Source: a virus. From it: a stretch of 39,458 bases of DNA. A program made the position numbers and the translations under genes. Of the stretch, positions 19,022 to 34,737 are shown piece by piece. Each line of letters begins with the position of its first letter. Position 1 is the first letter of the stretch. Under the pieces are notes generated by a model, which made no database searches, had not been told where the DNA came from, and saw nothing but the letters and a program-made list of their open reading frames with translations. Where the stretch lies: positions 1 to 39,458 of IMG/VR virus record IMGVR_UViG_3300044655_000546. One strand, given 5' to 3'.

Positions 19022-19053
19022 GCCCCGGCTTCTCTCCTACCGGGGCCTTTTTT
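19022..19053 (+). terminator. rho-independent terminator of the plus-strand arm
   Basis: GCCCCGG (19022-19028) pairs perfectly with CCGGGGC (19040-19046) around an 11-base loop. One C separates the stem from six T (19048-19053). Read on the minus strand there is no T-tract after the hairpin, so it is efficient for plus-strand transcripts only. The T-run overlaps the stop codon of the opposing 2068-codon gene. Confidence 0.88.
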
Positions 19054-22000
19054 ATATCTCAAACCCGTACTGTCTAGCGAGGCGCACGCCTTTAGCAGCT
19101 ACGCGATTCCTGTCCTCAGTTAGCTTATCTATCCGCTGCTTCTTAACCCGAGGGTCTAGGTCCGTGCGGTTCGTAACGCGCTCGATGTTGGCAGAGAGTT
19201 CATTCATGGTATCCATGTTCTCTTTCAGAGCTTCCTTGGAGCGCATTAGATCCTTAAACTTCGGGTCATCCTTGAGCGTCTGCATCAACTGCGTATTGCC
19301 CTTGGTCCGTGCAGCGCTTTCCGTAGCTGCAAACTGTTTGACCTCTTCGTATACATCGTAGAAGTCTTCCACTGCCTTATCCTTGGCACCCTTCACTAGC
19401 ACGCCCTTAAAGAAAGGCTGATCCGCAAGAATCTTCTCCGGCTTTTCTGGCCCATTGTAGAGAGCATAATCAGATGCAACCCTAGCCAAGCCCCACACCT
19501 GCCCAAAGTACCCTTCCATCACGCGCTCCATACGATCTGGAGACAGCACCTCTGCATCAATACCCATACCGTGCAGCTCTTTCGCTACGTCCTTCATCAG
19601 TTCTCCTGCCCTGCGGTCACGCAAGTAAGGGAGCTTCTCTGAATCTCCACGGCTTTCAATCGGCGCCCAGTTGTGGAAGTCGAAGTTCATCGCCGCTTCT
19701 GCCAAAGGTTTTACAGCATAGATCATAGGGAACGGAGGAATCACCGTATCCATCACCGTCTTACCGACTTCCTTGGCCGCTCTCTTGGTGCTAATGACAC
19801 CCATGTTCGCCAGAGTGATAGCTTCTGGAATCGTCTTGAGCAGTGCACCTAATTCAAACTGGATCGGTTCTTTAATGAACGGCTGGTCCTTATCTCCAGT
19901 GGGTATTAACCAATTCGAAGCGCGATCCGTAGCCTTCAGATAATCCTCGTCATCAGACATTGCCATAGCATAGGCTGACGTATACATCGCAACCAGAGCA
20001 GCACGAGTGTAGAAAATACGCCGTTGTTCCATCGCCTCTGCCTTAGACAGACGCCCGATCTTCTCAGGAGCCATAGCTTTAGCAGCAACATGCAGACCGT
20101 TCAGCGCGGCGCCAAAGAATGGAGTCACAGCTCGCATGGTGCGAGCCAACTCAGAACGTCCCTGACGCGCAAAGTTGATGATCTCTCGGGCCTTGATTGC
20201 CGCAATGTTCTCGGCATCTTTAGGACTGAACCCTTCACTAATAGCTTGCTTGTATGCCTTGTCAGCAACGACGGCGCGTGTGGCACCGTCCACTGCTTCG
20301 TGAATTTTCTTAACCTGATCGACGCCTTTGATCACCCAACCTTTGTCCTTGCTGACGTACTTGGAGAACTCAACGGGATCAGTGATTACATCCTGTGCAG
20401 CTACGATACCTCTACGCTGGAGCTTCTCATACCACTCTGACTTGTTCGCCATGATCTTGGTGAGCTCTTTCATCGTATCGAACGGAGTGACCATACCCAC
20501 ACGAGCAACGGCGCTGGCAGTCAACGGTTCGCGCACCAACTGCCTGAACCAGAACAGAGGATTCATAACCATCACACCGCGCACAAGGTTCGAAACTTTC
20601 TTGAGCTGACGGAAGATCGGATTGACCAGAGGCTGTGCACCCATGAGAGCAAACAATGCCTGCTTGTCGTAGACCTTGTAGTACTGGGGCTCACCATTCT
20701 CCATGACCGTGAGATCAGCCTGCTCCTTATGCTTCACACGTTCCGCTGACCCTGCAACAGATAACTGTTCAGCAAAGGCTTTGTTGAGATCGTTGCGCAT
20801 CGACATCATGGTGGTCATAGCCAGATGCTTGAGTAGGTTGGCTTCAACCATGACTTCATGGAAGTGGCGCTTCTGCTGCTTGATACCCGGCTGACGCTTA
20901 GTGCTACGCATACTGCTACGGAACGCATCGACTAGTGCATGGTTCGTAGGATCGTAGAGCATACTGTCGAAGTCTTTCTGGAGTTCATTCTCCATATTCT
21001 TGTACAGCGGGATATAGTTCGGACGCGTACGGCAGAAGTCAGCGAACTCCTTATTGATTACACCGCTAGACTCAAGGTTATCGACGCACGTTCTCAGCAG
21101 GCTGTAGACGTTTTGCGCTTCGTTGGCAAGCTGTGGATCAGAGGCTTCCAAAGCCTCAGCCATTTTCACTTGTTCATCAGTAGCCCATGTGCGGCTCTCG
21201 TACTGATTCTGAAACAGCTTAGTAATTTCCTCTGCTTTACCTTCAAGGGACTCAGCCGTCTCTATGAAACTTGCCTTTTTCTTTGCATCTTTCGTGCGTC
21301 GAGCTGCGGCGCGCAGATCATCTGCCATCACTTCGTAGTTAGCAGCGGTGTCCTTTTTCTTCTGATCTTCTGCACGGATGGTGCGAGCAACCAGACCGAC
21401 GAGCATGTTGTTAAACTTTTCTGCTTTACCTGCTTCAGTAATATCGCGGTAGATACGCTCAAGAGCCACATTCGGGTTTTTCTGTACGCGGTAGGTTCCG
21501 TCACCGTTAGGCATGATAGAACCATTATGTACGGCGTCGGTCAGCAGGTTCCCTGCTTGCGCATAAGCACTTGCCACCATATCAACAGCGGCTTTGCCGT
21601 CTACCATCATGGGGCGATCTTTAGTGGCTTTACCCAGATCATCGTACATATCCAACCATTCACTGGTGAAGGAGGTTCTGCGCCCTTCTTTGAATATGTC
21701 ACGCGCTCCGTCTGCAAACTTTTGAGAAAAGCTACGCTCCCTCAGCTCACCTGCCAACCCAATTTCATCGGGCTGTTCTTTGTGCACTTCACGAGCTATC
21801 TCTTCATCGTCGGCAATCTGCTTAGCGATCTGCGGGCTAGCTTTCTTGCTAGGAAGGCCAATGCCTTCCGCTTCCGTAGTTTTAAGCAATGACTGCAGTG
21901 CTGTTTCAAGCTCTGCCAGAGCAGGTTTCATTTGAGCGAGTTCTTCAATCCTTGCCTTACGATCAGCAACGCGCTGATGGTAATCACCAAGCGCCTTTTC

Positions 22001-25000
22001 AAAAGCTATTCTGTTCTTCTCTGGAATACCAAATAGCTTGCGCATGAAGTCCGTGAATTTATTCCACAGCGTAGGCGCTTGCGGGCGCGTCGGCTCCCGT
22101 CCCATACGACGAGATGCTTCAAACTCTCTGTTCTTTTTCTCTGCTTCAGTGATTCGCTTTCCATCCGCAGTATATTCACTGAGCACTTGCCGGAATGTTG
22201 GAGAAGTCAAACCGTAAGCAAGCAGCTCGCCCGGATCTCTATTGACATTACGCGACCAGAACTCGGCCACATTTTTAGAGTCAGGCGTTGCGGAAGGATG
22301 CCGCGCCGCGTTATCAAGGGCACCGTTGATCTTGGAAGACATTAGATCGAGCTGACCTTTGACTGCCGGGTTACGCGCAATAGATCCTGTGGTTAGCCCA
22401 TGCACCATCTCGTGAGTAAGGACATGCTCAGTGAACGCATCTGGGTTGTCGCTTCTGAAAAAAACGTTAGATCCAGTAGGGCCTGTTTCTGTTACACCGT
22501 TAGCTGTACGGAATGCGTGAACGATATCTGAAGAGAGTGTGTCCCCCGTCTTAACGAAAGAAACGCCAACGTCCTTTGCATAGGGAGATTGAAGAAGCTG
22601 ATGCGCAAGATCACCCAATTCCTTATGAGTTCCATGCTGTGTATAGCGCTCAAGCAGATCCTTTCCTGTCTTAACGTCAGAGAACTTGGCTATGTCTAAA
22701 GGCAGTGCGCCTTGATCTGGATTTCTGACGACAGCGGTTTGCACTTGTGGAGCTTCAATAGCCTGCGGTACGCCCACCCCTTCCTGCGCTTGAACAGCTA
22801 CGTCTACGGGCGTGTACTCATCCAGAGTTCTACGCGTGCCCTTCTTCATGCCATACTTTTCAGCAAAGTCTTTGGCATCATCAAGCGTCTTAAAGATGTA
22901 GGAACCTCTACGCGTATTTACACGGAAGCGATTGCCTTGTTCGTAGCCACCACCCGGAGCAAAGTATTCCTGCGCTTTCTGATGGAAGTGCTTACCAAAG
23001 GCGGCTTCGTACTCACGAGACATGCCGCCTCCAGAGTCGATAGGAACGGGGCCTTTTTCTAGCGCTTTTCTATGGATAGCTTCTTCATCAAGAACGCCAT
23101 ACTGACCCTTAGCCCATGTGAAGAGCAGGGGTTCTTTAAGCGGAGCTGCTGGTGTTACCGTTTCTTGGACTTTACCTTCTGCGGTAGGCTCTTTACTGAT
23201 TTGGTCGCTGACGCGTACTCCTTCCCCACCTTCTGTGGGATACCCAATTTCTTCGCCACCTTTGGGTCGTTCGCCACCGCCTGCATCAGTCGGTTCTGGG
23301 CCTTGGATTTTGCTGGCATACGGTTCGACCTCCATCTTTAGATAATCACGAGCCATCGGCGGTAAGTCGCCGCGGGACTCCATAACATTCAACGCGTCAC
23401 GGAGCGGCAAGCTCTGCAGCTCTTCGGGGATTTCAAACGGGAGCTTAGGACGAGCCACTTCTGGCGCACCTTCAGGGACTTCTACTCCTTCATCTTCTTC
23501 CGATGCCCTAAGTTTCTGCGTACCGATCTGTGTCTTAGCCGCTTCCTGTTCTTTAATCTTCTCAAGTTCAGTCGCCTTCATATGGCGACCAGCAAGACCC
23601 GCACCTGCGCCAGTGATTGCATAGAACGGAGCGCCTTGGGCTAACGTATCCTTGTATTCTTCAAACGCACCCTTATCCCAGAGAGGTTTGTCCGTATAAG
23701 ACCGTTCAAGTACAGAAGTCGCAATATCAGCAGAGGCGCCAGCAGCTTCGGCAAGCCCTGCATTCTTAAGAGCGTTACTAACGTAACCGCCAATCTTCTG
23801 CTGCGTTGCTTCAACACCTTCCTTCGCAACCATAGCCTGAATTGCTTCACGCGAACCTAAGATAGCGTCTTCGCTAGCGGCGCGGAACAAAGGCGCAATG
23901 CGTCCCCACGGTAGAAGATTAACGGCCCCTGCTGCGGCAGCATATGGCGCGGCTTCGCCTAGTTTGAAGTCTTTACCTTCAGCTTCAGCACGTTCTTTCA
24001 GTGCACCAAGCTCCTGCGTACCCATAAGCCCAGCGGCGGTAGCAAGACCACCAACACCCGGAACAGCCATAGCAGGAAGGATAGGAACAATTCCAGCACC
24101 TGCTTGCACGAGAGGAATACCGACCTTGCGCTTGATAACACCCGCCTGTTCTTCAGTAGGCATTTCAAAGGCACCTGCGGCTTCCTTCTGCTTCTGTCGC
24201 GCCCATTCTTCAGCAGTCTTTGCGATTCCTTCAGCGCCTACGGCTTTAGCAAGTTCAGCGCCGCCCAGACCTAATTGACCCAGAGAACTCTTAAGCGCTT
24301 GCTTGCCAGCAGCGCCGAGGCTTGTGTAGTCCGGTACAGGCTCACCCTTAGCGACAGTCAGTTCAGGTGCATCACGACGAAGCGTGTGCATGATGTCTTC
24401 ATCACCCATCGTATAGGGGACGTTTATAACTTCACCCTGAACCGTTTGGAAACCACGCATAGGAATGGCATCTTCGCCGTTATCCTTCAGAATACGTGCT
24501 ACATCATCGAGCGTATGGTTAGGATCGACATTGATCGTCTCACCCGTAGAGAGAAGCACAGGCACCATAGCAGGTTGTGCAGGCTGTGCCGATGGGGCAA
24601 GGTATTGCGCAGCGGGGGAGTTAGGATTCGAAACGTCCAGCATTCCTTCTGGAGCTGCACCTTGTTCCCCATATAACCCACGAAGCTGATTGACTCGGGC
24701 TACATACTTCTGCGTTTCCTCGAAGCGTGGAATACCCCCATACTTCTTAACATTGCCTTCACCTGCGTTGTACCCAGCAAGGGCCAGAGATGGATCACCC
24801 CCAAACATATCAAGGAGGCTACGCATGTATTTAGCCTGTGCATGAGCAGAGGCAACAGGATCACTTGGGTTGGTAAGACCAAAACGCTTTGCCGTAGCAG
24901 GCATGAACTGAGCCGTACCCACAGCCCCTTTAGGAGAGATCGCGGCAGGATTGAATCCAGACTCCTGATGGGCCTGTGCCATGAGCAGATCGTACGGCAC

Positions 25001-25258
25001 GCCGTACATAGCACTCACTTCTTTATAGATAGGAGCAAGCTGAGCCGCTCTTTCCTTAGCATCTTTAGATAGTTGTGGTATCGAGCCTGTAGGGAGCGCT
25101 TCTCCACGCACTGGGCTTTCAAGCTCAGCTAAACGCGCTCGGTTCGCTGCCCGCTCTTCTTCAGTGATCGGCCTAATGCCAAGCAGCTCATCGAGCTTAG
25201 AGCTGCCTGAACCAACGGAAGTATCGAAAAGGAAATCGAGCGGATTACGCTGGCTCAT
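19052..25258 (-). CDS. giant multidomain virion protein: lytic transglycosylase, HExxH region, LPD38-like C-terminus, 2068 aa
   Basis: Residues about 70-200 form an SLT lytic transglycosylase, with catalytic E99 in AHQESGFNP and the following GTAQFMP and ALAGYNAGEG motifs. It would open peptidoglycan for DNA entry. A helical region with a hydrophobic patch (about 390-415) follows. HEMVH at 949-953 is a zinc-metallopeptidase motif in context THEMVHGLTTG. The C-terminal third has MNPLFWFRQLVREP (about 1555-1600), FFGAALNGLHVAAKAM (about 1710-1725) and downstream blocks typical of LPD38 domains of large polyvalent phage proteins. Such proteins are packaged and ejected into the host. It is last in the late arm, 12 bases after the upstream gene. 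Confidence 0.92.
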   Translation of the reverse strand: MSQRNPLDFLFDTSVGSGSSKLDELLGIRPITEEERAANRARLAELESPVRGEALPTGSIPQLSKDAKERAAQLAPIYKEVSAMYGVPYDLLMAQAHQESGFNPAAISPKGAVGTAQFMPATAKRFGLTNPSDPVASAHAQAKYMRSLLDMFGGDPSLALAGYNAGEGNVKKYGGIPRFEETQKYVARVNQLRGLYGEQGAAPEGMLDVSNPNSPAAQYLAPSAQPAQPAMVPVLLSTGETINVDPNHTLDDVARILKDNGEDAIPMRGFQTVQGEVINVPYTMGDEDIMHTLRRDAPELTVAKGEPVPDYTSLGAAGKQALKSSLGQLGLGGAELAKAVGAEGIAKTAEEWARQKQKEAAGAFEMPTEEQAGVIKRKVGIPLVQAGAGIVPILPAMAVPGVGGLATAAGLMGTQELGALKERAEAEGKDFKLGEAAPYAAAAGAVNLLPWGRIAPLFRAASEDAILGSREAIQAMVAKEGVEATQQKIGGYVSNALKNAGLAEAAGASADIATSVLERSYTDKPLWDKGAFEEYKDTLAQGAPFYAITGAGAGLAGRHMKATELEKIKEQEAAKTQIGTQKLRASEEDEGVEVPEGAPEVARPKLPFEIPEELQSLPLRDALNVMESRGDLPPMARDYLKMEVEPYASKIQGPEPTDAGGGERPKGGEEIGYPTEGGEGVRVSDQISKEPTAEGKVQETVTPAAPLKEPLLFTWAKGQYGVLDEEAIHRKALEKGPVPIDSGGGMSREYEAAFGKHFHQKAQEYFAPGGGYEQGNRFRVNTRRGSYIFKTLDDAKDFAEKYGMKKGTRRTLDEYTPVDVAVQAQEGVGVPQAIEAPQVQTAVVRNPDQGALPLDIAKFSDVKTGKDLLERYTQHGTHKELGDLAHQLLQSPYAKDVGVSFVKTGDTLSSDIVHAFRTANGVTETGPTGSNVFFRSDNPDAFTEHVLTHEMVHGLTTGSIARNPAVKGQLDLMSSKINGALDNAARHPSATPDSKNVAEFWSRNVNRDPGELLAYGLTSPTFRQVLSEYTADGKRITEAEKKNREFEASRRMGREPTRPQAPTLWNKFTDFMRKLFGIPEKNRIAFEKALGDYHQRVADRKARIEELAQMKPALAELETALQSLLKTTEAEGIGLPSKKASPQIAKQIADDEEIAREVHKEQPDEIGLAGELRERSFSQKFADGARDIFKEGRRTSFTSEWLDMYDDLGKATKDRPMMVDGKAAVDMVASAYAQAGNLLTDAVHNGSIMPNGDGTYRVQKNPNVALERIYRDITEAGKAEKFNNMLVGLVARTIRAEDQKKKDTAANYEVMADDLRAAARRTKDAKKKASFIETAESLEGKAEEITKLFQNQYESRTWATDEQVKMAEALEASDPQLANEAQNVYSLLRTCVDNLESSGVINKEFADFCRTRPNYIPLYKNMENELQKDFDSMLYDPTNHALVDAFRSSMRSTKRQPGIKQQKRHFHEVMVEANLLKHLAMTTMMSMRNDLNKAFAEQLSVAGSAERVKHKEQADLTVMENGEPQYYKVYDKQALFALMGAQPLVNPIFRQLKKVSNLVRGVMVMNPLFWFRQLVREPLTASAVARVGMVTPFDTMKELTKIMANKSEWYEKLQRRGIVAAQDVITDPVEFSKYVSKDKGWVIKGVDQVKKIHEAVDGATRAVVADKAYKQAISEGFSPKDAENIAAIKAREIINFARQGRSELARTMRAVTPFFGAALNGLHVAAKAMAPEKIGRLSKAEAMEQRRIFYTRAALVAMYTSAYAMAMSDDEDYLKATDRASNWLIPTGDKDQPFIKEPIQFELGALLKTIPEAITLANMGVISTKRAAKEVGKTVMDTVIPPFPMIYAVKPLAEAAMNFDFHNWAPIESRGDSEKLPYLRDRRAGELMKDVAKELHGMGIDAEVLSPDRMERVMEGYFGQVWGLARVASDYALYNGPEKPEKILADQPFFKGVLVKGAKDKAVEDFYDVYEEVKQFAATESAARTKGNTQLMQTLKDDPKFKDLMRSKEALKENMDTMNELSANIERVTNRTDLDPRVKKQRIDKLTEDRNRVAAKGVRLARQYGFEI

Positions 25259-25270
25259 TGACTAGCCCTA

Positions 25271-27160
25271 TTACTGTGGTGAAGACCCCGTAAGTTTACC
25301 ACCTATGATAGATCGACCTGTAGGGGTAGCACCACCACCTAGTCCAGACTGCTGTTGCTGTGCTTGACCTGCGCCTAACCCACCTCCTGTAGCGGCAACG
25401 ATGCTATTGAGCGCCGCTAAGTAATGCTTTTGCGTTCTGCGTTCAAGTTCTCCTTCTGGAGGTGTAGCACCAATGTATTCATCCTTGATCTCCTTCGCGG
25501 CTTGCTCTCTAGCCTGATTCCAAGCCGTCAGCTTCTGCCCTTCAGTTACATCACCTTTCTGCCCAGACATGATCTGAGAACGTAGGAGCTTGCCTTCTTC
25601 CGAACGGAGTAGTCGATCTAGTGCACTTTCAGAACGCTCCCCGGCTACGCGCTCAGCACTAAGCAGCTTGGCCTTGTCTCTCATAAGATCGAAGTACTCC
25701 TTAGCCGCAGTGCGCTGTAGGTCAGCAGGCTGGTCAGCGTATGCACGCTCAATATCAAGCGCTTTGCGTTGGATATCTTCTTCGGAGCCAATGCCTTTCT
25801 GATAGCCACCCAGCGCTTGTAGCGCCGCCGAACCTAATGCGAATCGACCACCATAAGGGTTGCTCAGACCACCAGCAAGGCCACCAAGCACAGACTGCAG
25901 GATCGTAGAAGTACGCGCGTTGCTTTCGAGATCTGCCAACTTCTTGGCAATCTCAGGGTCCATCTTCTTCTCGCCATACAGGCTCTTGATGTAATCAACC
26001 ATTTCTTTGCCTTGGTCCAGACCACCCAGACCTTGCGCTTCTGAATCCGGTGTGACTGCAGCAGAAGGGACATCCGTCTTAGCTTCTTTGAAGGGTTTAT
26101 ATAGATTGGTGCCTTCGTCGAGAACTCGTGTGCTAGCCTTAACTTCAGTCTTATCGTGGGATTTGGGTTTCCAAGTAGATTTTTCGGGGTTCTCAAAGGA
26201 AGTTCTAACCGCTTTCTCAACCGCAGATTCTTTTTTGGGAGCCGCCTTACTTAGATCGTAATCAATAGCACCTGTGGTTTCTCCAGCCTGCTCGCCGCTG
26301 CCACCCAACCATGTCGGCATCTCTCGCTGCCAGTCTTCTGAGAACGCCGCTTGATTTTTTGGATCAGCAATGATGTCGCCTACTTCATACAAGGTCGACG
26401 CATACATAATCGGGTTAGCCGCTCTAAACAATGACCCTGCCGTCTTACCATATTTGAGTAACGGATCTACTACTTTACCTACACCTCCTTTTAGCTTAGA
26501 TGCAATACCCGCTTCTAGCTCGGCTGGGGAAATTTCTTTACCCAAAAACTTCTTGAGCAAGTCCATCTTAGATGGCGCTTCACGCGGTGCACCTTCAATA
26601 AACGAACCCATAGGGCCATAGTCCGTAGGCATAGCACGAGGCGTAGCACCGGGACCTTCAATAAATGAACCCATCTCGCCATAAGGAAGATCTTCAGCCG
26701 CTCCGAGCATGAGAGACATGATGTCCTTCCCTTTAGAAAACCCGCGCACCTCACCGCCATCAGCAAAGTGACTTTGGATTGCTTCGATTACATCGGGAGG
26801 GAGGACGTTACCACCATCGGCAAAAGATACAAGACCACCGCCCGCCATCATCTGCTGCGGCATCTCTTCAGGAGCGCCCATCTGGGGAGCCATAGGAAGG
26901 CCCGTATCCATCTGACTCATGATTCCTTGAGATGCCATCTTCTGAATGATGTTAGGCTGAGGCCCCTGCTGCTGCAGTGCAGTCATGGCTTTCTGTGCTT
27001 CCTGCTGACTCTGCTGAGCCGCTGCCGCCGCTAGACCCCTAAGACCTACAGGTTGACCCTGAGCTGCTGCTTGGAGGATCTGATTCGTCGCATTGGGGTT
27101 AGCCTTCAGCGCGTTGTAAGCGGTATCAAGAAACCGTGCGGGTTTGTTCTGGTCCATCAT
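25271..27160 (-). CDS. probable internal virion protein with FADGG motifs, 629 aa
   Basis: The N-terminus is Ala/Gln-rich and helical. Near residues 105-140 it has SFADGGNV and HFADGGEV, two copies of a motif shared with neighbouring virion genes. A near-exact short repeat MGSFIEG occurs twice around residues 160-190. A long charged helical region follows, and the C-terminus is Gly/Gln-rich. No enzyme motif is visible. Its place directly before the giant ejected protein suggests an internal or ejected virion component. AGAGGG is seven bases before the ATG at 27160. Confidence 0.75.
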   Translation of the reverse strand: MMDQNKPARFLDTAYNALKANPNATNQILQAAAQGQPVGLRGLAAAAAQQSQQEAQKAMTALQQQGPQPNIIQKMASQGIMSQMDTGLPMAPQMGAPEEMPQQMMAGGGLVSFADGGNVLPPDVIEAIQSHFADGGEVRGFSKGKDIMSLMLGAAEDLPYGEMGSFIEGPGATPRAMPTDYGPMGSFIEGAPREAPSKMDLLKKFLGKEISPAELEAGIASKLKGGVGKVVDPLLKYGKTAGSLFRAANPIMYASTLYEVGDIIADPKNQAAFSEDWQREMPTWLGGSGEQAGETTGAIDYDLSKAAPKKESAVEKAVRTSFENPEKSTWKPKSHDKTEVKASTRVLDEGTNLYKPFKEAKTDVPSAAVTPDSEAQGLGGLDQGKEMVDYIKSLYGEKKMDPEIAKKLADLESNARTSTILQSVLGGLAGGLSNPYGGRFALGSAALQALGGYQKGIGSEEDIQRKALDIERAYADQPADLQRTAAKEYFDLMRDKAKLLSAERVAGERSESALDRLLRSEEGKLLRSQIMSGQKGDVTEGQKLTAWNQAREQAAKEIKDEYIGATPPEGELERRTQKHYLAALNSIVAATGGGLGAGQAQQQQSGLGGGATPTGRSIIGGKLTGSSPQ

Positions 27161-27162
27161 GT

Positions 27163-27175
27163 CGATACCCTCTTA
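27163..27175 (-). repeat. 13-base late-gene junction repeat, copy 1
   Basis: TAAGAGGGTATCG on the minus strand, two bases before the ATG at 27160. It fuses the stop codon of the upstream gene to the ribosome-binding site of the next, and is identical to 29182-29194. Confidence 0.85.
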
Positions 27176-29179
27176 GCCCGGAAGTCTGTTCGTTGTTTGC
27201 GTGCCCTGCTGTCCCGCCGCTCCCATGATCAGGTTAGTCGGTCCTTGATAAGCATTGCCCATACCACCCCACCAATTCATACCTGTCTGCTGTTTGGCAT
27301 TAGCCGCCTGTTGGGCAATGTTCTGCACCGTCTGCCCCGCTGCGCCCCAAAGCTGAGGAATGTTCTGCTGAGCACCCCAAGTACTGACACCCAGACCACC
27401 AAGACCCTGACCCATCTGCCCTGCCTGATTAAGCGCCTGCAGATTAAGACCCTGACCCGTAAGGCCCGCTTGTTGATTCTGAATGCCCGCCTGCAGATTT
27501 GCCTGCTGGTTGGCTAAGGCCGCTTGCTGCGCAAGCTGCGCGTTCTGCATCGCTGTGTTGTAGTCTACTTGTTGATTGCCCTGTTGAGCCGCAAGCTGCT
27601 GGGCGACATAATTGTTATATGCCGTGTTCTGCGACTGAGCGTTGAACTGGGACTCTGCATTTTGGGCCACCTGATTCTGCTGTGCGGCAGTGAGCTGCCC
27701 ACCATACGACTGCATTGCCGCTTGGAGCGCGTTGTTCACATACTGACTACGCTGTTGGTTGAGGGCCTGCTGGTTAGCCATAGCCGTCTGCTGCGCTGCC
27801 GAAAGATTAGCCTGCCCTGCTTGAAGACCCAGACCCTGCTCAGCAGAGAACTGCCCCATGCCAGACTGGTAGGCTTGCTGGAGACCCTGAGCCTCGATAT
27901 CTCCCAAACGCTGAGCCTGAGCCCTGCGCGCTTCAGAGCGTTCCAAAGCATTGCGAGATCCGCCATAAGCACCTGCTCCAACCGCCTGTGCATCAAGACG
28001 CGCCATCTGCTTAGCAAAATCTCGGTTGGCTTCACGCTTTTGGATGTCTACGACATTCTGCATATACGGGCTCATGTACTGAGCCGCAGTGCCCTGATCC
28101 GTCCAAGACTTTGGCCCCTGCATCTGGTTGAGCTGCGCCTGCGCCGCTTCGTAGTTCCGCACGTTGGCTTCGGTAGGTGCCTGCATCATTGCTGCCTGCA
28201 TTCTTTCTACTTGTGCCTGTTGTGCCTGAACATCCCGAATGCTACCGCGAGCGATATTGGCAGCTTCTACGTTTTGAGCGGTTACCTGCTGTGGTGTGTA
28301 CCCCGCCTGATCCATTAGCCTGCTGGCAGCGGAAGACATGATGCCCGCGCCTTCTCCGATGGTCTCTGGGGCTTTGCTTGCGGCACGGAGCTGGTCTAGT
28401 GCTTGCTGATAAATGGGATTGGTAATACCCCCATAAAGTTGATCTTTCTTGGCCGCTTCTTCGCCAGCGAAAAATGGAACCTCTTGGGTCATTGCCTGAG
28501 ACAACGGCACTGCGGGTGGCGCGGCTTTATCTGCCTGCTGCTTTTTATAGGTGTCCGCGGTCTTGCTCACCAGATTGGCAATCGTTGGATTCTTAGGCGT
28601 GCCGGTGCCGGTATCAGAATAAGGAGAGACGTTAAGCCCTGAGTTCTTTTCAATCGTATTCAGACGATCAATCTGCTTCTGCGTGACTTTCCCATCCTGA
28701 ATGGCTTGGCTGATGTTCTTGACATACCGCTGCTGCTGAGATGTCAGCGCTTTGACCTTTCCGGCTTCCGCATACCCACGAGGTTTAGCAAGGCTCATCA
28801 GCCCACCCTGCGCGGCTCCCTTCTTAGGCTCCTTGCCCGTATCTGAAGGGTTGGTATATTCAGGAATCGTCCCCGCTTCAGGTGATCTGGGGATAGGCGC
28901 CATCGGCATCGAAGTACCCTGCCGCATTGCTTGAATATAGGGTGTCAGGTCCTGCCCCTGCGGTACGCCAAACGCTTCGTACATTGAAGACCATGAAGGA
29001 CGAGTAGTCATCCCCTCAATCATTTTGGCCTGAGCCCCTGCCTGACGAGAGAGCGCCTGAAAAGGAGAGTACTCGGAGGAGTCTTTGTTAAACCCCAACA
29101 GCGCTTCGTACTTGGGCTTTAACTCCGTTGATGACTTAACTTCTTGATAAGGAGAAAGAGCTGCTGCTTGACCGCCCAT
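27173..29179 (-). CDS. Gln/Ala-rich probable virion protein, 668 aa
   Basis: The N-terminal 150 residues are mixed, with QGGLMSLAKPRGYAEAGKV resembling the FADGG motifs of the neighbouring genes. The C-terminal 400 residues are extremely Gln/Ala/Asn-rich helices (AQQAALANQQANLQAG and similar), probably a long coiled rod. No catalytic motif is visible. Low-complexity proteins like this near ejection proteins are usually internal or tail-associated virion parts (inference). The CTG-rich opposite strand produces long spurious reading frames that are not genes. Confidence 0.75.
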   Translation of the reverse strand: MGGQAAALSPYQEVKSSTELKPKYEALLGFNKDSSEYSPFQALSRQAGAQAKMIEGMTTRPSWSSMYEAFGVPQGQDLTPYIQAMRQGTSMPMAPIPRSPEAGTIPEYTNPSDTGKEPKKGAAQGGLMSLAKPRGYAEAGKVKALTSQQQRYVKNISQAIQDGKVTQKQIDRLNTIEKNSGLNVSPYSDTGTGTPKNPTIANLVSKTADTYKKQQADKAAPPAVPLSQAMTQEVPFFAGEEAAKKDQLYGGITNPIYQQALDQLRAASKAPETIGEGAGIMSSAASRLMDQAGYTPQQVTAQNVEAANIARGSIRDVQAQQAQVERMQAAMMQAPTEANVRNYEAAQAQLNQMQGPKSWTDQGTAAQYMSPYMQNVVDIQKREANRDFAKQMARLDAQAVGAGAYGGSRNALERSEARRAQAQRLGDIEAQGLQQAYQSGMGQFSAEQGLGLQAGQANLSAAQQTAMANQQALNQQRSQYVNNALQAAMQSYGGQLTAAQQNQVAQNAESQFNAQSQNTAYNNYVAQQLAAQQGNQQVDYNTAMQNAQLAQQAALANQQANLQAGIQNQQAGLTGQGLNLQALNQAGQMGQGLGGLGVSTWGAQQNIPQLWGAAGQTVQNIAQQAANAKQQTGMNWWGGMGNAYQGPTNLIMGAAGQQGTQTTNRLPG

Positions 29180-29181
29180 AA

Positions 29182-29194
29182 CGATACCCTCTTA
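29182..29194 (-). repeat. 13-base late-gene junction repeat, copy 2
   Basis: Identical to 27163-27175 and at the same two-base distance from the following ATG (29179), again including the upstream stop codon. Confidence 0.85.
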
Positions 29195-29599
29195 AATCTC
29201 TAACTGAATGGTGTTTGACTTTTTAATGGCACCAAATCGTGCCGCCATGCGCACTAGCGAATCGCGTACTGAGCCTTCCATACAGGTAGCCCCGTTACTA
29301 CGGAGGATATCGCTAAACTGCGAAAAATTTTCTGGGGTAAGTATACCCTTACCGCCAATGGTTGTGATAAATGCCACGCGATGATTGATGCGATTGAAGA
29401 AGTGCAGAGTCACCGCTCCATGCACCGCATTGTCCTCATCCACCACTACCAAGAGCTTCCAAACGCCATTAACACAATACGACTTGGTCTCTTCGAGCGT
29501 TATGTCTCCGCCACTATGCGGAATCGCAGATGCGATAAAGCCCTCAACCGAGGGCCAGACCATATTGACGTATTGTAACGGTACCTCTTGGACAATCAT
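29192..29599 (-). CDS. GNAT-fold-like phage protein, 135 aa
   Basis: Pattern: VWPSVEGFIASAIPHSGGDITLEETKS, then NGVWKLLVVVDEDNAVHGAVTLHFF, a strand pair, and a C-terminal SLVRMAARFG helix. This strand/helix order resembles a family of small phage proteins with a GNAT acetyltransferase-like fold found among virion genes, though the acetyl-CoA loop is not obvious. It may be structural rather than catalytic. The start overlaps the upstream stop (ATGA). Confidence 0.6.
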   Translation of the reverse strand: MIVQEVPLQYVNMVWPSVEGFIASAIPHSGGDITLEETKSYCVNGVWKLLVVVDEDNAVHGAVTLHFFNRINHRVAFITTIGGKGILTPENFSQFSDILRSNGATCMEGSVRDSLVRMAARFGAIKKSNTIQLEI

Positions 29600-30255
29600 G
29601 AAACGCCAAAGAACTCATCGAGGAACTGCGCCCCCGCCTTGGTCGAACCATTACCCATTGCACTGACAATATCCGCAGGGAGAATGAAATCCCCATCGTG
29701 CAGATCTACACTGCCACCCGCCGCTAGACCCCAAGTTTGAGAGCCGAGTTCTTTGGCTTGCTTTGCTTCCTGTTGAGTTCTAAGTGCCGTGTCTGTAGCA
29801 GAAGGGGCAGAATACCCAGAACCCATCATGCCACCAATACCTTGAATAGCCGGAGCTACAGCCGCTTTCGCTACTTCCGTTCCTACAGTACCCAACGTAG
29901 ATCCAAGACCACCCGTAGCCGCCGTAGGGGCTATACCAAACATAGGATCAAGTACGGCTGTACCCGTAGATGCTGCTGTACCAGTACCTGCACCTGCTAA
30001 AGACCCAAGGCCCCCAGTCAGACCACCACCCAGTGCTCCAAACATAGCACCTTTACCGGGATCACTACCCATAGCGGCGGAACCCGCAGCGCCTAACCCA
30101 GAACCTACAAGCGCCCCAGTACCAATAGTCCCAAGCGCACTAGCAACACCCGTCGAAGCGCCCAGAGCGGTAGCCCCCGCAGCGATGCCGCCACTAACAG
30201 CCCCCAACCCCGTTCCGATAGCGGAACCTATTGCGCCAAGAATTGCGAAGCTCAT
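29596..30255 (-). CDS. Gly/Ala-rich hydrophobic virion-associated protein, 219 aa
   Basis: Residues 1-150 are almost entirely Gly, Ala, Ser, Thr and Leu in glycine-zipper-like stretches (GSAIGTGLGAVSGGIAAGAT), compatible with membrane insertion or packing. The C-terminus turns polar: LAAGGSVDLHDGDFILPADIVSAMG, resembling the GG-V ... DGEYVIP motif of the 397-aa gene upstream. A role as a small ejected, membrane-active virion protein is inferred from composition and position. Confidence 0.7.
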   Translation of the reverse strand: MSFAILGAIGSAIGTGLGAVSGGIAAGATALGASTGVASALGTIGTGALVGSGLGAAGSAAMGSDPGKGAMFGALGGGLTGGLGSLAGAGTGTAASTGTAVLDPMFGIAPTAATGGLGSTLGTVGTEVAKAAVAPAIQGIGGMMGSGYSAPSATDTALRTQQEAKQAKELGSQTWGLAAGGSVDLHDGDFILPADIVSAMGNGSTKAGAQFLDEFFGVS

Positions 30256-30683
30256 ACAGCCTCCAACAAGTTTTCATACTGCTGCATACTATCACAAACC
30301 AACGCTTTTCTTACGGTTTCCAAGGACTTATCCTCATCCTCGTAGGTATGCACCGTAAGCCATTCCGTATCGGTAACCGCATAGACTGCGCGTTGTGTTC
30401 CGGGTTTTGTAATGAATACTGAAGGGGCCATGACATCGTGCCGATCCCCTAACTCGTCTACGACAACGCAGTGGCCTTTAAGAGCAACCGTAACGTGCTC
30501 GGATTTATGCACCGCGGTAACCACCGTAGCCCCTGCTTGAACAAAAATACGACGAGCGTACTGCGTGGGTGTGAAGTAATGCTCCAAGGGGAACTCAACC
30601 TGTTCTAACTCTCCTGAGTTAATCGAGCTCTCCATGCTCTGCTTGAGCTTGGCGATATGCGCACCCCTGACGAGATCGTTCAC
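30252..30683 (-). CDS. cupin-like protein, 143 aa, GTG start
   Basis: The core YARRIFVQAGATVVTAVHKSEH, VALKGHCVVVD, and APSVFITKPGTQRAVYAV is the two-motif beta pattern of a cupin barrel, with His residues in the first motif (H65, H69 region). In phages such cupins occur among virion genes with unknown function. The GTG start at 30683 overlaps the upstream stop (GTGA), and the end overlaps the next gene. Confidence 0.75.
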   Translation of the reverse strand: MNDLVRGAHIAKLKQSMESSINSGELEQVEFPLEHYFTPTQYARRIFVQAGATVVTAVHKSEHVTVALKGHCVVVDELGDRHDVMAPSVFITKPGTQRAVYAVTDTEWLTVHTYEDEDKSLETVRKALVCDSMQQYENLLEAV

Positions 30684-31873
30684 GCTTTGACTCCTGATAG
30701 CGTTTTGATGAATTCCCTTTGCGCGGCACCCTGCACGATCTGCTTGCCTTTTTTGGCATGAGCTGCAGCTCGGACTTTAGTCATCATACGCTTTAGCTTA
30801 TCTGGACCGTACTTAGCAGCGATCTCTTTAGGAATGACGTACTCCCCATCAGCAACTCTGACTTCTTCTTTACCTGAAATGTTGGCGGGGATATCGTCAC
30901 TTTGACCGTCACCGGGACCATCAATCAACCCACCGCGAGCATAGGTATCACCGTAGTCCTGTACGACTTCCCGCCGTTGCGGTGTTGCTGCAGCGTAAGG
31001 CTGCGCCTTTGGGATAAGACCCTGCGGGTGCATCGTTTCACCCATCGGTTGGAGGTTGATATAGCCCCCCTGCGCCATCCCCTGCTTAATCCCCGGTTGA
31101 AGTGCGGCGAGACCGCCTTCTCTTTGAATCTGTTCTTGAGCCCATGCAGGGAAATGCACGCTGATCTGAGGATTAGCCAAACCCACTTCAACAGGACCGC
31201 CGTCAGCGTAACCCCAAGCAGAGCGACTAAAGCGACGAGCGTTCTGAGCGTCCATCATATTTTTAAGGACCTGCTGTTGTTGACGCTGTTGTCCTTGATC
31301 TTGTGTGTCCTGATTGGCGCCATACGCTGATCCTAAGAAGAATCCACCTGCAAGCGGTTCGTAGTTTTCCTTGAGGAACTGGGTGTAGTCCTTGAAGCCG
31401 GAGGATTGCGGCGGAGGTGGGGTAGGAGAAATGGGTTGAGCTGCAGGTTGTTGAATATTTGGCACCTGCTGAATAGATGCCGCGCCAATTCCCGGAATAG
31501 GTTTAGCAGCATAAGATGACAGATTATAATCCATAGCAACGGGCGGCGGAGCCGCTATCTGTCCACCCTGCGGAGCTCCGGCGCTTTGATTCATTCCGAA
31601 CATCTGAGAAATCTGAGGGGCGTTATAACCGCCGACGCCACCACCAACCCCACCCGTCAATGCGCCGCTAAGCGCACCGGATTTACCACCCGTCAAAGCA
31701 CCAAGACCTGCGCCCACTGCCGCGCCAGATAAAGCACCGACTGTAGTCTGCGTAATTTCCTTGAGGAGTTGGTCTTCCACCGCACTGCTTGCGATGTCTC
31801 CCATGATCCCGCCTACGGCTGGTGTTGCTACGCTGGTAACCAGATTGCCTAAGATGCCTTCGAGTCCGTACAT
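30680..31873 (-). CDS. Gly-rich virion-associated protein with YADGG and DGEYVIP motifs, 397 aa
   Basis: The N-terminal 100 residues form glycine-zipper-like hydrophobic runs (GALSGAAVGAGLGALTGG). The middle is Pro/Gln-rich. GYADGGPV (about residues 220-227) repeats the motif of the 629-aa gene, and near residue 314 GGLIDGPGDGQSDDIPA continues to VADGEYVIPKEI, a motif I recognise in many phage structural proteins. The C-terminus is basic. It is probably an internal or ejected virion protein; the exact role is unknown. Confidence 0.75.
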   Translation of the reverse strand: MYGLEGILGNLVTSVATPAVGGIMGDIASSAVEDQLLKEITQTTVGALSGAAVGAGLGALTGGKSGALSGALTGGVGGGVGGYNAPQISQMFGMNQSAGAPQGGQIAAPPPVAMDYNLSSYAAKPIPGIGAASIQQVPNIQQPAAQPISPTPPPPQSSGFKDYTQFLKENYEPLAGGFFLGSAYGANQDTQDQGQQRQQQQVLKNMMDAQNARRFSRSAWGYADGGPVEVGLANPQISVHFPAWAQEQIQREGGLAALQPGIKQGMAQGGYINLQPMGETMHPQGLIPKAQPYAAATPQRREVVQDYGDTYARGGLIDGPGDGQSDDIPANISGKEEVRVADGEYVIPKEIAAKYGPDKLKRMMTKVRAAAHAKKGKQIVQGAAQREFIKTLSGVKA

Positions 31874-31882
31874 GTCTTTATC

Positions 31883-32125
31883 CTACGGTACGATTTTAAG
31901 TACGTTGCCTGCGCCAGCATCGCGCCAGACAGAGCCTGATGGCAACCCCGTTGCCGAAGTGGGGAGATCAGAGAGTGTCAAAGTAGCTCCCGCAATGGCC
32001 CCCGGATTCGCGTGCTGCTGCATATAGTAATTCAACTGCCGCACGATCATATTCAGGTATTGAACATCATACTCTAGCGGGGCCAGCGAAAGGACGGGAT
32101 CTGGGACATTGTTCCTATTAGCCAT
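31883..32125 (-). CDS. conserved small phage protein, 80 aa
   Basis: The start ATG at 32125 overlaps the upstream stop as TAATG, preceded by GGAGAGG; a longer frame to 32179 would run into the 870-aa gene. The C-terminus LPSGSVWRDAGAGNVLKIVP closely resembles a recurrent C-terminal phrase in small virion-cluster proteins of podovirus-like phages. The function is unknown. Confidence 0.7.
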   Translation of the reverse strand: MANRNNVPDPVLSLAPLEYDVQYLNMIVRQLNYYMQQHANPGAIAGATLTLSDLPTSATGLPSGSVWRDAGAGNVLKIVP

Positions 32126-34737
32126 TAGCCTCTCCGCCCGTCGGGCTGTATACGCAGGCGCGGCACGCCGAGCTGCCATTTGACATCGAGATCATTACTC
32201 CCGATACGGAATGCTACCTGCCTTGCTCTAAGCCTGATCCACGCCTGATTCGTGTAATTATAGACCTGCGTAGTGACCTCGGAGCTTGCGACAACCTCGG
32301 AATCGGATGTGCGGAAATTGCCTTGACCCGGATAATCACGCCCTGAAATCGTCATCGTCACATACGGTGCCGGGACAATCGAACCAATGAAGTCTACGTC
32401 AGGAATAATGCGCGTCACAAACGCAAGGCTGTTGCCTTCGCCCAAGTCAAAGTCGGCGCTTTCAATGTAGGCATTCATCGGGATCGGTGGGTTCACCGCC
32501 GCATCGTTCAGCCCCGTCTCGTGATAGAGAATGTTCCCCGCACCCTGCCCGCCAATGATCGTCAGCGTATCGCCCAGTGTGTAGTTGATCCCCGGCTGAG
32601 AAATCGTGACACTGGTGATCTCACCATCATTGTTCAAAGCCACAACAAATGAGCAGTTGGCTCCCGAACCGCCTACAGCGATGACTGAAGAAGAGGAAGG
32701 TGCTTTCGTGTACTGCCCACCGTCGATGATATCGACACCCGTAATGGCCCCCGTAGAGGAAACCCCGGTGACTTCAAGCACCGCTGCGCGGTTGTATGCG
32801 GCAATCGGCACGCCCTGAATATGAGACCCCATCCACGCAGAGCGTAGAAGCTGCCCGTAATACCAGAGCTTTTCCAGATAGTTGTAGACCACGTAGCGAT
32901 CATTGTACGTAGACCCGGACGACGGGTAGTACCACCAGACCTCGTTGTACTTTTCATTCTGCCCAGCATAAATCTGCTGAAGCTGCTCGGTGTTGATATC
33001 GTCGAAAATGTACTGACGAAGCGAGCAAGGCAGTGTATCCACACGCCCAGAGTACGCATAGAACTTGTCCTGCCCCATCCAGTAGGTGATGTTGTTCGCC
33101 GTGACCACCGAGTTGGCAGAGGAGATCGTGATGTCCGTCGCCAGAGGCGTAAACCCAAAGACGTAAGGCGGCCCCAGATACCGCATGGAGTACAGCGAAG
33201 AATCCGTCCAGATCAGATATTCCTGCCGTGTGGCCTCTACCGTGATGATCGAGCTGCCTGAAGAGAGTCTGTAGCTACCCGCCGTGTTCGTTGCAGAAGG
33301 TAACCATGTGGCCGGATCTTCCTGACTGCACCATGAAATAAACATGGGGTCTTGCTGTGTTGGCGACGTAGCCAACCAGTCGTTGGTACCAAAGGCCACA
33401 ATATGCCGTTCTTCCGTGACCAGAACATTTGACGCAACATAAGGTGCATAGCCATCCGCACCGGGGTAATCCAGCAAATCCAAAGCACGGGCTGTAACCT
33501 GACCGCCACCTGAAAGACTGGTACCGGGGTCCCAATAATAAACGCCGCCGCCATCCGGGTTGAACACCAGCATCTGACCGTAGTTGTCAGAACTCCAAAG
33601 ACGCAGATACTCGCGGAAGCCCTGTACCGTATCGGAGAGCGTAATACCTGTGTTCCATCCTCTGGCATTGGCAACGCTGTACTGAAGACCTGTGACGTCG
33701 CGCCCAGACAAATGATCCGTCGCCATCGTATCGCCAAACCCACGAGTGCACCCCGTCAAGCTGGTGCCTGTCTTGCCTGAGTATTGAATCCACTCTGCTT
33801 CGATATAGACGTACCCAGAAGCTGCAAAGGCGCTCGCATCCGTAACCGGAATGGTTGTTGCCGAACTATTGATATCCGCCGTTGTGGTCGTAAGACCTGC
33901 ACCTGTAGCTTGACTTACCCATGTCCCTACACCCCAACCATTACCGAAGATGTTAACGTCACCGCCGATAGTGAGCTGGAAGAACGCATGTGCCGGAGCA
34001 TTACCCCCACCCGCGGTGGTTGAAGTCGATTGAACCCCTGTATCAACGGCAATATAGTTGGTCGCAACGCCGACAACTTGGAATTCTGTATTGAGCTCTG
34101 CGGCAGTATAGGGACCGAAGGCCGTCAAATCTTCAAGGGTGACATAGTCACCGGGTCCTGCACCATTCGATACGCTGTTGATTGCTACGTAGGTACTGGT
34201 GATCGTGGTTGACGACGTATGCGTAGCAGGTGTCGTGTTGTTGTAGCCTCGAATGCAGCCGGAGAGCGTCGTGCCGGAGGCCGTAGCAACGTAGATATCT
34301 TCAGATCCAATCGTAATGACATAAGGCGCTGCGCGAGTAAACGCCGTACCGGAAGACACCGTGATAGACGTTGCTGTGTCGCTGATCGTCGCCGCCAAAG
34401 ACCCATAGATAGGGTAGACAGGATCGGTAGGGAGGGTGGAGTCCAACCGAATCGGCGTGATGTCATAGTAGCTGCCACCGACCTGAACGTAGTACTTGAG
34501 GTTTGTACCAATTCCAAGAATGAAATATCCCGACAGCGAGACCCATTCAATCAGGTTACGGCAGGTGCCCAGAAAATACCCAGACCCATTGATGACCCAA
34601 CCACCAACAATTTCAGGTGAACCCGAGCGGAAGCGCACCAAGTTACATGAGTACCAGCCCCCTTCGTTAGCCAAATCTGTGCTTTCCCGCGAGACACCGG
34701 GGCGCATCTGAATTTTTTGAAGGACTGGTTCGGTCAT
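32125..34737 (-). CDS. P22 gp10-like structural protein with two inserted beta modules, 870 aa
   Basis: The N-terminus (IQMRPGVSRESTDL, GGWYSCNLVRFRSGSPEIVGGW) and propeller-like blocks (GGVYYWDPGT, VVYNYLEKLWYYGQ, ending in KWQLGVPRLRIQ) resemble the family containing P22 gp10, which seals the portal and tail. Two about 54-residue modules, residues 119-173 and 290-343, repeat one pattern: T-x-I-x-V, an F/A turn, then GT-x-L-x-GC-x-RG and a TxATxH-like end. These recur in other phage surface proteins. A further beta module (VSSTGAITGVDIIDGGQYTKAP) follows. Structural role likely; the gp10 link is by pattern only. Confidence 0.7.
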   Translation of the reverse strand: MTEPVLQKIQMRPGVSRESTDLANEGGWYSCNLVRFRSGSPEIVGGWVINGSGYFLGTCRNLIEWVSLSGYFILGIGTNLKYYVQVGGSYYDITPIRLDSTLPTDPVYPIYGSLAATISDTATSITVSSGTAFTRAAPYVITIGSEDIYVATASGTTLSGCIRGYNNTTPATHTSSTTITSTYVAINSVSNGAGPGDYVTLEDLTAFGPYTAAELNTEFQVVGVATNYIAVDTGVQSTSTTAGGGNAPAHAFFQLTIGGDVNIFGNGWGVGTWVSQATGAGLTTTTADINSSATTIPVTDASAFAASGYVYIEAEWIQYSGKTGTSLTGCTRGFGDTMATDHLSGRDVTGLQYSVANARGWNTGITLSDTVQGFREYLRLWSSDNYGQMLVFNPDGGGVYYWDPGTSLSGGGQVTARALDLLDYPGADGYAPYVASNVLVTEERHIVAFGTNDWLATSPTQQDPMFISWCSQEDPATWLPSATNTAGSYRLSSGSSIITVEATRQEYLIWTDSSLYSMRYLGPPYVFGFTPLATDITISSANSVVTANNITYWMGQDKFYAYSGRVDTLPCSLRQYIFDDINTEQLQQIYAGQNEKYNEVWWYYPSSGSTYNDRYVVYNYLEKLWYYGQLLRSAWMGSHIQGVPIAAYNRAAVLEVTGVSSTGAITGVDIIDGGQYTKAPSSSSVIAVGGSGANCSFVVALNNDGEITSVTISQPGINYTLGDTLTIIGGQGAGNILYHETGLNDAAVNPPIPMNAYIESADFDLGEGNSLAFVTRIIPDVDFIGSIVPAPYVTMTISGRDYPGQGNFRTSDSEVVASSEVTTQVYNYTNQAWIRLRARQVAFRIGSNDLDVKWQLGVPRLRIQPDGRRG

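Follow-up and report, generated by a model that had tools for sequence, protein, structure and literature searches.

Results

A recurrent peptide in neighbouring late genes

We analysed a viral DNA record of 39,458 bases from IMG/VR (IMGVR_UViG_3300044655_000546; hereafter the window), with 47 selected open reading frames (ORFs), for a short peptide, [FY]A[DE][GA]G.V (hereafter the tag), that recurs in neighbouring late genes, and for a second conserved segment encoded in the same region (hereafter the module). The genes and sites of the window located in this section lie on the minus strand. An 870-aa gp10-like 'stabilization' (nozzle) protein is encoded at 32125..34737, and the slot after it holds the 397-aa gene (30680..31873). 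Further along the transcriptional order lie the 219-aa gene (29596..30255), the 668-aa gene (27173..29179), the 629-aa gene (25271..27160) and the gene for a 2068-aa protein with transglycosylase (SLT) and LPD38 domains (19052..25258). The 870- and 2068-aa proteins carry no tag.

The tag pattern occurs four times, in three of these late genes and in none of the remaining ORFs, against a mean of 0.004 and a maximum of 1 in 500 amino-acid shuffles of the 47 ORFs. The 629-aa gene contains a tandem tag, MAGGGLVSFADGGNV (26804..26848, residues 105-119), which includes FADGGNV (residues 113-119), and then FADGGEV followed by RGF (26747..26767, residues 132-138). YADGGPV lies in the 397-aa gene (31190..31210, residues 222-228), preceded by a predicted helix (residues 187-219), and the same gene has a further tag-like MAQGGYI (31058..31078, residues 266-272). 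The copy in the 668-aa gene, YAEAGKV after AAQGGLMSL (28754..28774, residues 136-142), is degenerate, with AG in place of GG. A degenerate DNA pattern for the tag also had four sites, all on the coding strand and none elsewhere in the 39,458 bases, where the reversed DNA pattern had no match at all. The four copies are encoded by differing codons; therefore it is the peptide that recurs and not the DNA, a DNA element is unlikely, and DNA-level repetition was rejected as the origin of the tag.

The full, hook-like module (YARGGLIDGPGDGQSDDIPANI...ADGEYVIPKEIAAKYG...) lies in the 397-aa gene (30761..30943, residues 311-371), and a short form, LAAGGSVDLHDGDFILPADIVSAMGNGSTKAGAQFLDEFFGVS, makes up the C-terminus of the 219-aa gene (29599..29727, residues 177-219). 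Both proteins also have a weak Gly-zipper in their N-terminal parts. An earlier sequence-only reading of this DNA had quoted the tag copies and, in the 397- and 219-aa genes, related GG-V...DG(E/D)(Y/F)(V/I)(I/L)P segments. All of its peptides were found where it had placed them in the 629-, 668-, 397- and 219-aa genes, and the segments (residues 314-348 of the 397-aa protein and about 180-193 of the 219-aa protein) turned out to be parts of the conserved module.

The genes have the order of a P22-like ejection module, in which a gp10-like gene is followed by DNA-ejection and transglycosylase genes. The 870-aa protein matches phrog_3287 ('virion structural protein'), and its relatives are annotated 'stabilization protein'. 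When relatives from the same slots were submitted to PHROGs, four of five from the 668 slot matched PHROG 4287 ('DNA ejection protein') and two of five from the 629 slot had a transglycosylase-like domain directly after the tag; the ejection family was matched by 11/42 proteins of both slots together. The window thus resembles P22-type ejection proteins (gp7, gp20 and gp16) in the order after a gp10-like nozzle gene and in the PHROG 4287 matches of the 668 slot, and differs from them in having the transglycosylase in the last gene. To our knowledge, no such tag has been described in P22 itself. A gp10-like nozzle gene, ejection genes and transglycosylase genes were seen in the window and its relatives. 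As a tape-measure protein, the 397-aa protein had no match in Pfam or NCBIfam; its sole match to a tape-measure family, phrog_167 (E 0.0053), spans residues 17-196, outside the module.

The tag is enriched in a few slots of the late region

With the 870-aa protein as query, IMG/VR yielded 454 relatives, from which 80 loci were kept. Copies of the window (L001-L004) were excluded from the ORF sets, and merging at 80% identity of the gp10-like protein reduced the loci from 81 to 34. The gene order 870, 98, 397, 143, 219, 135, 668, 629-slot, 2068 is conserved in the relatives, with smaller members, such as 143 and 219, missing from many of them. Peptide patterns found no close relatives of the 629-aa protein, and its slot was traced by gene order instead.

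Across the 34 dereplicated loci, with shuffle means as the control, the pattern [FYLM]A[DEQNKHRS]GG.[VIL] matched 32 times in the 397/219 slots (22/42 proteins positive; shuffle mean 0.6) and 14 times in the 629 slot (11/25 positive; shuffle mean 0.1). It was rare in the 668 slot (2 matches in 2/28 proteins; shuffle mean 0.28, maximum 3), and yielded one match in the 26 proteins of the 2068 slot (shuffle mean 0.2), none in the 34 of the 870 slot and two in the 248 proteins of upstream genes (shuffle mean 0.7). The reversed motif was not enriched in the slots of these loci. Matches of a looser pattern in 7/23 proteins of the acetyltransferase-like 135 slot look like an unrelated conserved stretch of the acetyltransferase fold (...LGG[RK]L[VI]...). 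One 668-slot protein (L022:6162-9380) has four copies of LEVAKVNYGGQLT at a spacing of 55 residues.

The motif also emerged de novo. Our own small script, used in place of MEME and run after excluding 3/25 proteins of the 629 slot (>1100 aa) and sequences of ≤300 aa from the 397 set, ranked [TG]GG[IL]VA[FL]A[GD]GG first in the 629 slot (>8 bits in 21/22 proteins given), and the tandem tag of the window fits this motif; other motifs ranked first in the 668 and 870 slots. A matrix was then built from 19 sites in the 629 slot, leaving out the window, and scored by whether a protein beat all 60 of its shuffles. It transferred to 13/42 proteins of the 397/219 slots (0.7 expected) and 7/28 of the 668 slot (0.5 expected), and not to the 2068 slot (0/26), the 870 slot (0/34) or upstream genes (8/248, 4.1 expected). 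The sequence-only reading had proposed one short motif common to otherwise dissimilar late proteins and had suggested motif discovery and a check of confinement to the late arm. Its proposal agrees with these counts: enrichment is strong in the 397/219 and 629 slots and weak in the 668 slot, and the motif is restricted to these few slots rather than equally frequent in other proteins.

The module is found in tape-measure proteins

The module can be summarized as GG.[IV].GPG.G.SD.IPA...ADGEFVVPA, and the stretch conserved across relatives reads GG.L..GPGDG.SD.IPA.I.....ARLADGEFVVPA..VS.LGNGS..AG...L. A tblastn search with 62 residues of the window returned 634 phage records at E<=10. Among 60 evenly stepped rows, 40 were annotated as tape measure, five as hypothetical, five as 'coil containing', three as endolysin, three as tail protein or tail component, one as lysozyme and one as 'phage protein', and two were unannotated. 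We also built a profile (A3) of 44 rows from loci of this gene module, containing no tape-measure protein, and compared it with 177,635 Protein Data Bank (PDB) sequences. At E<=1 only two matched, Douge gp16 (2.9e-8, two copies) and JBD30 gp46 (0.006), each of them a tape-measure protein. The signature of the JBD30/Douge-type hook module, A.GG.[IV].GPG.G.SD.IPA...GE[FY]V, is present in the module of the window (profile A3, alignment A4). One relative annotated 'calcium-binding protein' gave rise to an RTX-like, calcium-binding reading of the module, which was dropped because many tape-measure proteins have T in place of the D of GDG.

The JBD30 paper predicts that residues 1022-1066, which follow an unstructured stretch, form a hook from a short hairpin and two helices; its authors speculate that the hook anchors the tape-measure protein in the baseplate (PMC11445458). 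The module coincides with this hook, starting at G1022 of FASGGHIKGPGTGTSDSIP, the first G of GGHIKGPGTGTSDSIP. An AlphaFold2 model of the 397-aa protein predicts a hairpin (329-332/336-339, low confidence), a helix at 349-371 (confidence about 81-87) and a helix at 383-392, with the tags in low-confidence stretches. JBD30 shares the module with the window. The two helices predicted for the 397-aa protein and, at low confidence in one of two models, the hairpin resemble the JBD30 hook, which follows an unstructured stretch; a second ATGGQI comes after the JBD30 module. It differs in that a single 1158-aa protein serves a long tail and ends in a coiled coil after the hook, whereas in the window the elements are distributed over several shorter proteins of a P22-like gene cluster, and the 397-aa protein has the module at its end. 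Douge gp16 and other actinophage tape-measure proteins share the module (Douge copies at about 962-1008 and 1410-1451), but Douge gp16 is a siphophage protein of 1699 aa, whose solved part is 1658-1699, outside the module.

For T5, PMC10038345 states that the tape-measure protein pb2 is cut after R1127 and that the 43 residues before the cut are modelled in a crevice between subunits of the opened hub, where they apparently continue as a strand along a hub hairpin. A tag-like AEGG starts at 1128, directly after the cut, and AEGG...GEHGTEVVTPM, at the junction that leads into the C-terminal muralytic part, resembles the module by eye. As statistical matches, lambda gpH and T5 pb2 were rejected, because 26/300 and 52/300 shuffles, respectively, scored as high. 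Lambda gpH has the tag-like FATGG near 733-737 and YATGG near 779-783.

Tags flank the module in bacterial prophages

An A4 scan of bacterial genomes gave 80 loci from several phyla, of which 77 had a module-holding ORF and three yielded none. The module usually sits late in a long ORF. A.GG occurs ≤12 residues before the module in 64/77 ORFs and 35-95 residues after it in 51/77, compared with 249/2958 control windows elsewhere in the same prophage proteins. For an alignment (A5), 42 of the 77 ORFs (600-1300 aa) were chosen by the pattern GPG.G.SD.I; therefore independent evidence comes only from columns outside this pattern, the second tag among them. The 42 proteins have a mean column identity of 12%, share the stretch A.GGLI.GPGTGTSDSIPA.LSNGE.V...N.G..P.FA.GG.V and match tape-measure families, the commonest of which was matched by 34/42. 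In prophages of Nitrosospira and other betaproteobacteria (L228:5047-6261, L238:5071-6186), the carrier of the module has 371-404 aa and belongs to phrog_8003 (virion structural protein); in L238 an internal virion protein of phrog_511 is encoded nearby.

We built a matrix from the second, unselected tag of the prophage proteins and counted proteins that beat all 100 shuffles. It was found in 9/42 proteins of the 397/219 slots (0.4 expected) and 8/25 of the 629 slot (0.2 expected), compared with 1/28 of the 668 slot (0.3 expected), 1/26 of the 2068 slot, 0/34 of the 870 slot and 4/248 upstream proteins (2.5 expected). Within the window, the tags themselves were the top sites: FADGGEV for the 629-aa protein (0/500 shuffles reached its score), YADGGPV for the 397-aa protein (p 0.012) and, for the 668-aa protein, YAEAGKV (p 0.038). 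Nothing was found in the 219-, 870- and 2068-aa proteins. This matrix result is the most direct tie of the motif to tape-measure proteins.

Distribution of the tag and module

A DNA pattern of the double tag, applied to IMG/VR as the sole criterion, gave at least 84 matches in at least 80 loci; among the matches listed, 83/84 are in the frame of an ORF and 69/80 loci contain members of the same gene module. Nine double-tag proteins, eight from loci without members of the gene module and one (L141) from a locus with such a member, were submitted to PHROGs: five matched tape-measure families, one matched families of unknown function and three had no match. The sharing of a motif proposed by the sequence-only reading stood; that reading had missed that the tag and the DGEYVIP segment belong to one tape-measure module and that the tag is very widespread. 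Taken together, the sequence comparisons support well the sharing of the tag and module between short-tailed-phage proteins and tape-measure proteins.

Among cultured or complete relatives, the tag was seen in DSL-LC04, MinM2, LKA5 and 023Pt_psg01, and not in these slots of CRP-902, phiM5, OH, MW202879 and CV-1-33. phiM5 has genes of this region without the tag, and its internal virion proteins are marked as detected in the particle proteome. Twelve cultured or complete records were chosen by a gp10-like gene or a module match, and profile A3 matched five of them at E<=0.001 (DSL-LC04, 023Pt_psg01, MW202675, LKA5 and HTVC023P). Among isolates we noticed a link between long gp10-like proteins and the presence of the module, which we do not claim, since the short proteins probably belong to a single lineage.

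Several individual proteins deserve mention. Pseudomonas phage LKA5 gp57 (720 aa; L211:7962-10124) has an N-terminal FADGGRVRGPGTGTSDD and a second FADGGVV at 121, with a giant gene directly after. MW202675 encodes, just before the acetyltransferase, a protein (197 aa as called; L213:8091-8684) with two ...YVIPA/P... module copies. DSL-LC04, in which a 'DNA transfer protein' is annotated, has near the 397 position a 759-aa protein (L210:15704-17983) annotated 'tail tape measure protein', possibly owing to the module alone. Small proteins upstream of a gp4-like gene, a label that is itself a reading of the sequence, end in [CG]YAKGGSV..SASSRGDGCATKGHTKGR or similar (L015:1472-2700, L024:219-1321); these ends make up another family of tags, akin to the first through YA.GG.V.

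Discussion

Because podovirus ejection proteins diverge fast, shared parts are difficult to recognize in them, and how they relate to the tape-measure proteins of long tails is unsettled. We favour, with a probability of roughly one half, the reading that the tag is a short linear tag of the tape-measure module, spread here over ejection proteins and tethering them in the exit channel. The order in tape-measure proteins is a tag ([FY]A.GG.[IV]), GPG.G.SD.IPA, a short turn, GE[FY]V, a helix and a second tag (FA.GG.V). In the window, which comes from an uncultivated short-tailed phage, these elements are divided among neighbouring genes, with separate tags and the full module near the C-terminus in the 397-aa protein, the short module in the 219-aa protein, tandem tags in the 629-aa protein and the degenerate tag in the 668-aa protein. 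We propose that the flexible segments, probably by strand addition, bind a channel-lining partner (the nozzle or hub) in the manner modelled for the T5 tape-measure residues in the opened hub. Ejected proteins would stay attached and aligned with the channel, and their membrane-active and wall-cutting parts would leave ahead of the DNA. We favour an anchoring role for three reasons: the slots of the carriers are those of ejection or the tail channel, the position of the module is that of a proposed anchor, and residues of the T5 protein are modelled in the hub. Among the three functions that the sequence-only reading had put forward (binding tag, packaging signal or protease site), a binding tag is the best and is plausible. 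The data show the sharing of the tag, its restriction to a few slots and its link to tape-measure proteins; the docking, its partner and its timing are inferred.

Several observations weigh against tethering. In no structure is the tag or module seen bound to a partner. The residues built in the Douge, JBD30 and lambda structures are ends beyond the module only, and the T5 residues built in the hub precede AEGG and exclude it. The JBD30 hook, too, is predicted. Neither lambda nor T5 gave a module-profile match above chance, and both are leads by eye. The mean pLDDT is 52.7 for the 397-aa protein and 69.4 for a second model of the module alone, which has the helices and no hairpin, and Foldseek returned no convincing PDB match for either model. 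The virion location of the carriers is deduced from gene order and family names, and the link of the 668 protein to the tag is weak. Furthermore, 7/12 cultured or complete relatives are without the module at E<=0.001; therefore the element is dispensable in some lineages, common but not universal.

The foremost alternative, which we consider unlikely, is that binding among the tags and modules makes the ejection proteins co-assemble into a trans-envelope channel with no separate receptor. Such like-with-like assembly would suit an element that sits on several partners of one complex, also in tandem copies, and tape-measure proteins form trimers. Against it, the 2068-aa partner lacks the tag, and the docked T5 stretch beside the tag-like AEGG binds the hub.

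A processing site, at or beside which a protease cuts during tail maturation or ejection, is less probable still. It draws on the T5 cut directly before A-E-G-G, and lambda gpH is known to be shortened at its C-terminus. Against it, no conserved basic residue precedes the tags here, and a scan of slot proteins, which covered part of the late region, turned up no protease family; for JBD30, a peptidase motif was not found by its authors, and the cut at 1066 is only predicted (PMC11445458). A cut and an anchor could coexist.

We regard a procapsid packaging signal, read by the scaffold or portal, as improbable. Podovirus ejection proteins are packaged in the head, and a related tag, YAKGG[SK]V, occurs in the small proteins upstream of the gp4-like gene. 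Tape-measure proteins, whose assembly takes place in tails, have the same element, and the 2068-aa transglycosylase would need packaging too, yet is without the tag; this suggestion of the sequence-only reading is therefore not favoured. Binding to a host envelope factor after ejection is, if anything, slightly more doubtful: ManYZ and SNIPE are partners of the lambda tape-measure protein at the inner membrane, but the tape-measure positions named in the paper on this association (lambda 304, Bas14 100-150) are far from the module, which moreover occurs in prophages of hosts from several phyla, so that a single host partner is unlikely. Finally, convergence of Gly/Ala-rich linkers on such strings was rejected as very improbable, because despite the Q/A/G-rich flanks the shuffled counts are far lower, the reversed motif is not enriched and the listed double-tag matches are, with a single exception, in frame.

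A broader and more tentative version holds that a general exit-channel tether is common to tailed phages and that the tag-module-tag unit has been exchanged or split in evolution between the tape-measure proteins of long tails and the separate ejection proteins of many short-tailed phages; the protein of the 397-aa slot would then keep the anchoring end but lack the ruler of a tape-measure protein. The shared element hints that short- and long-tailed phages hold injected proteins in place similarly, provides a handle by which candidate ejected proteins can be recognized in uncultivated phages independently of homology, and makes the anchoring idea for JBD30 and T5 testable through deletions in laboratory phages. 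We found no description of the tag or module in the open-access literature on ejection proteins, tape-measure motifs and hooks, searched by titles and the starts of abstracts, with subscription papers mostly outside its range.

Other features of the late region

Two neighbouring proteins have features of their own. The 2068-aa ejection protein contains a zincin-like HEMVHG stretch, seen by eye, and with its domains may be a multi-enzyme injected protein. Between both module carriers, a 143-aa protein (30252-30683) resembles tail fibre adhesin families (phrog_24280) and has a weak cupin match.

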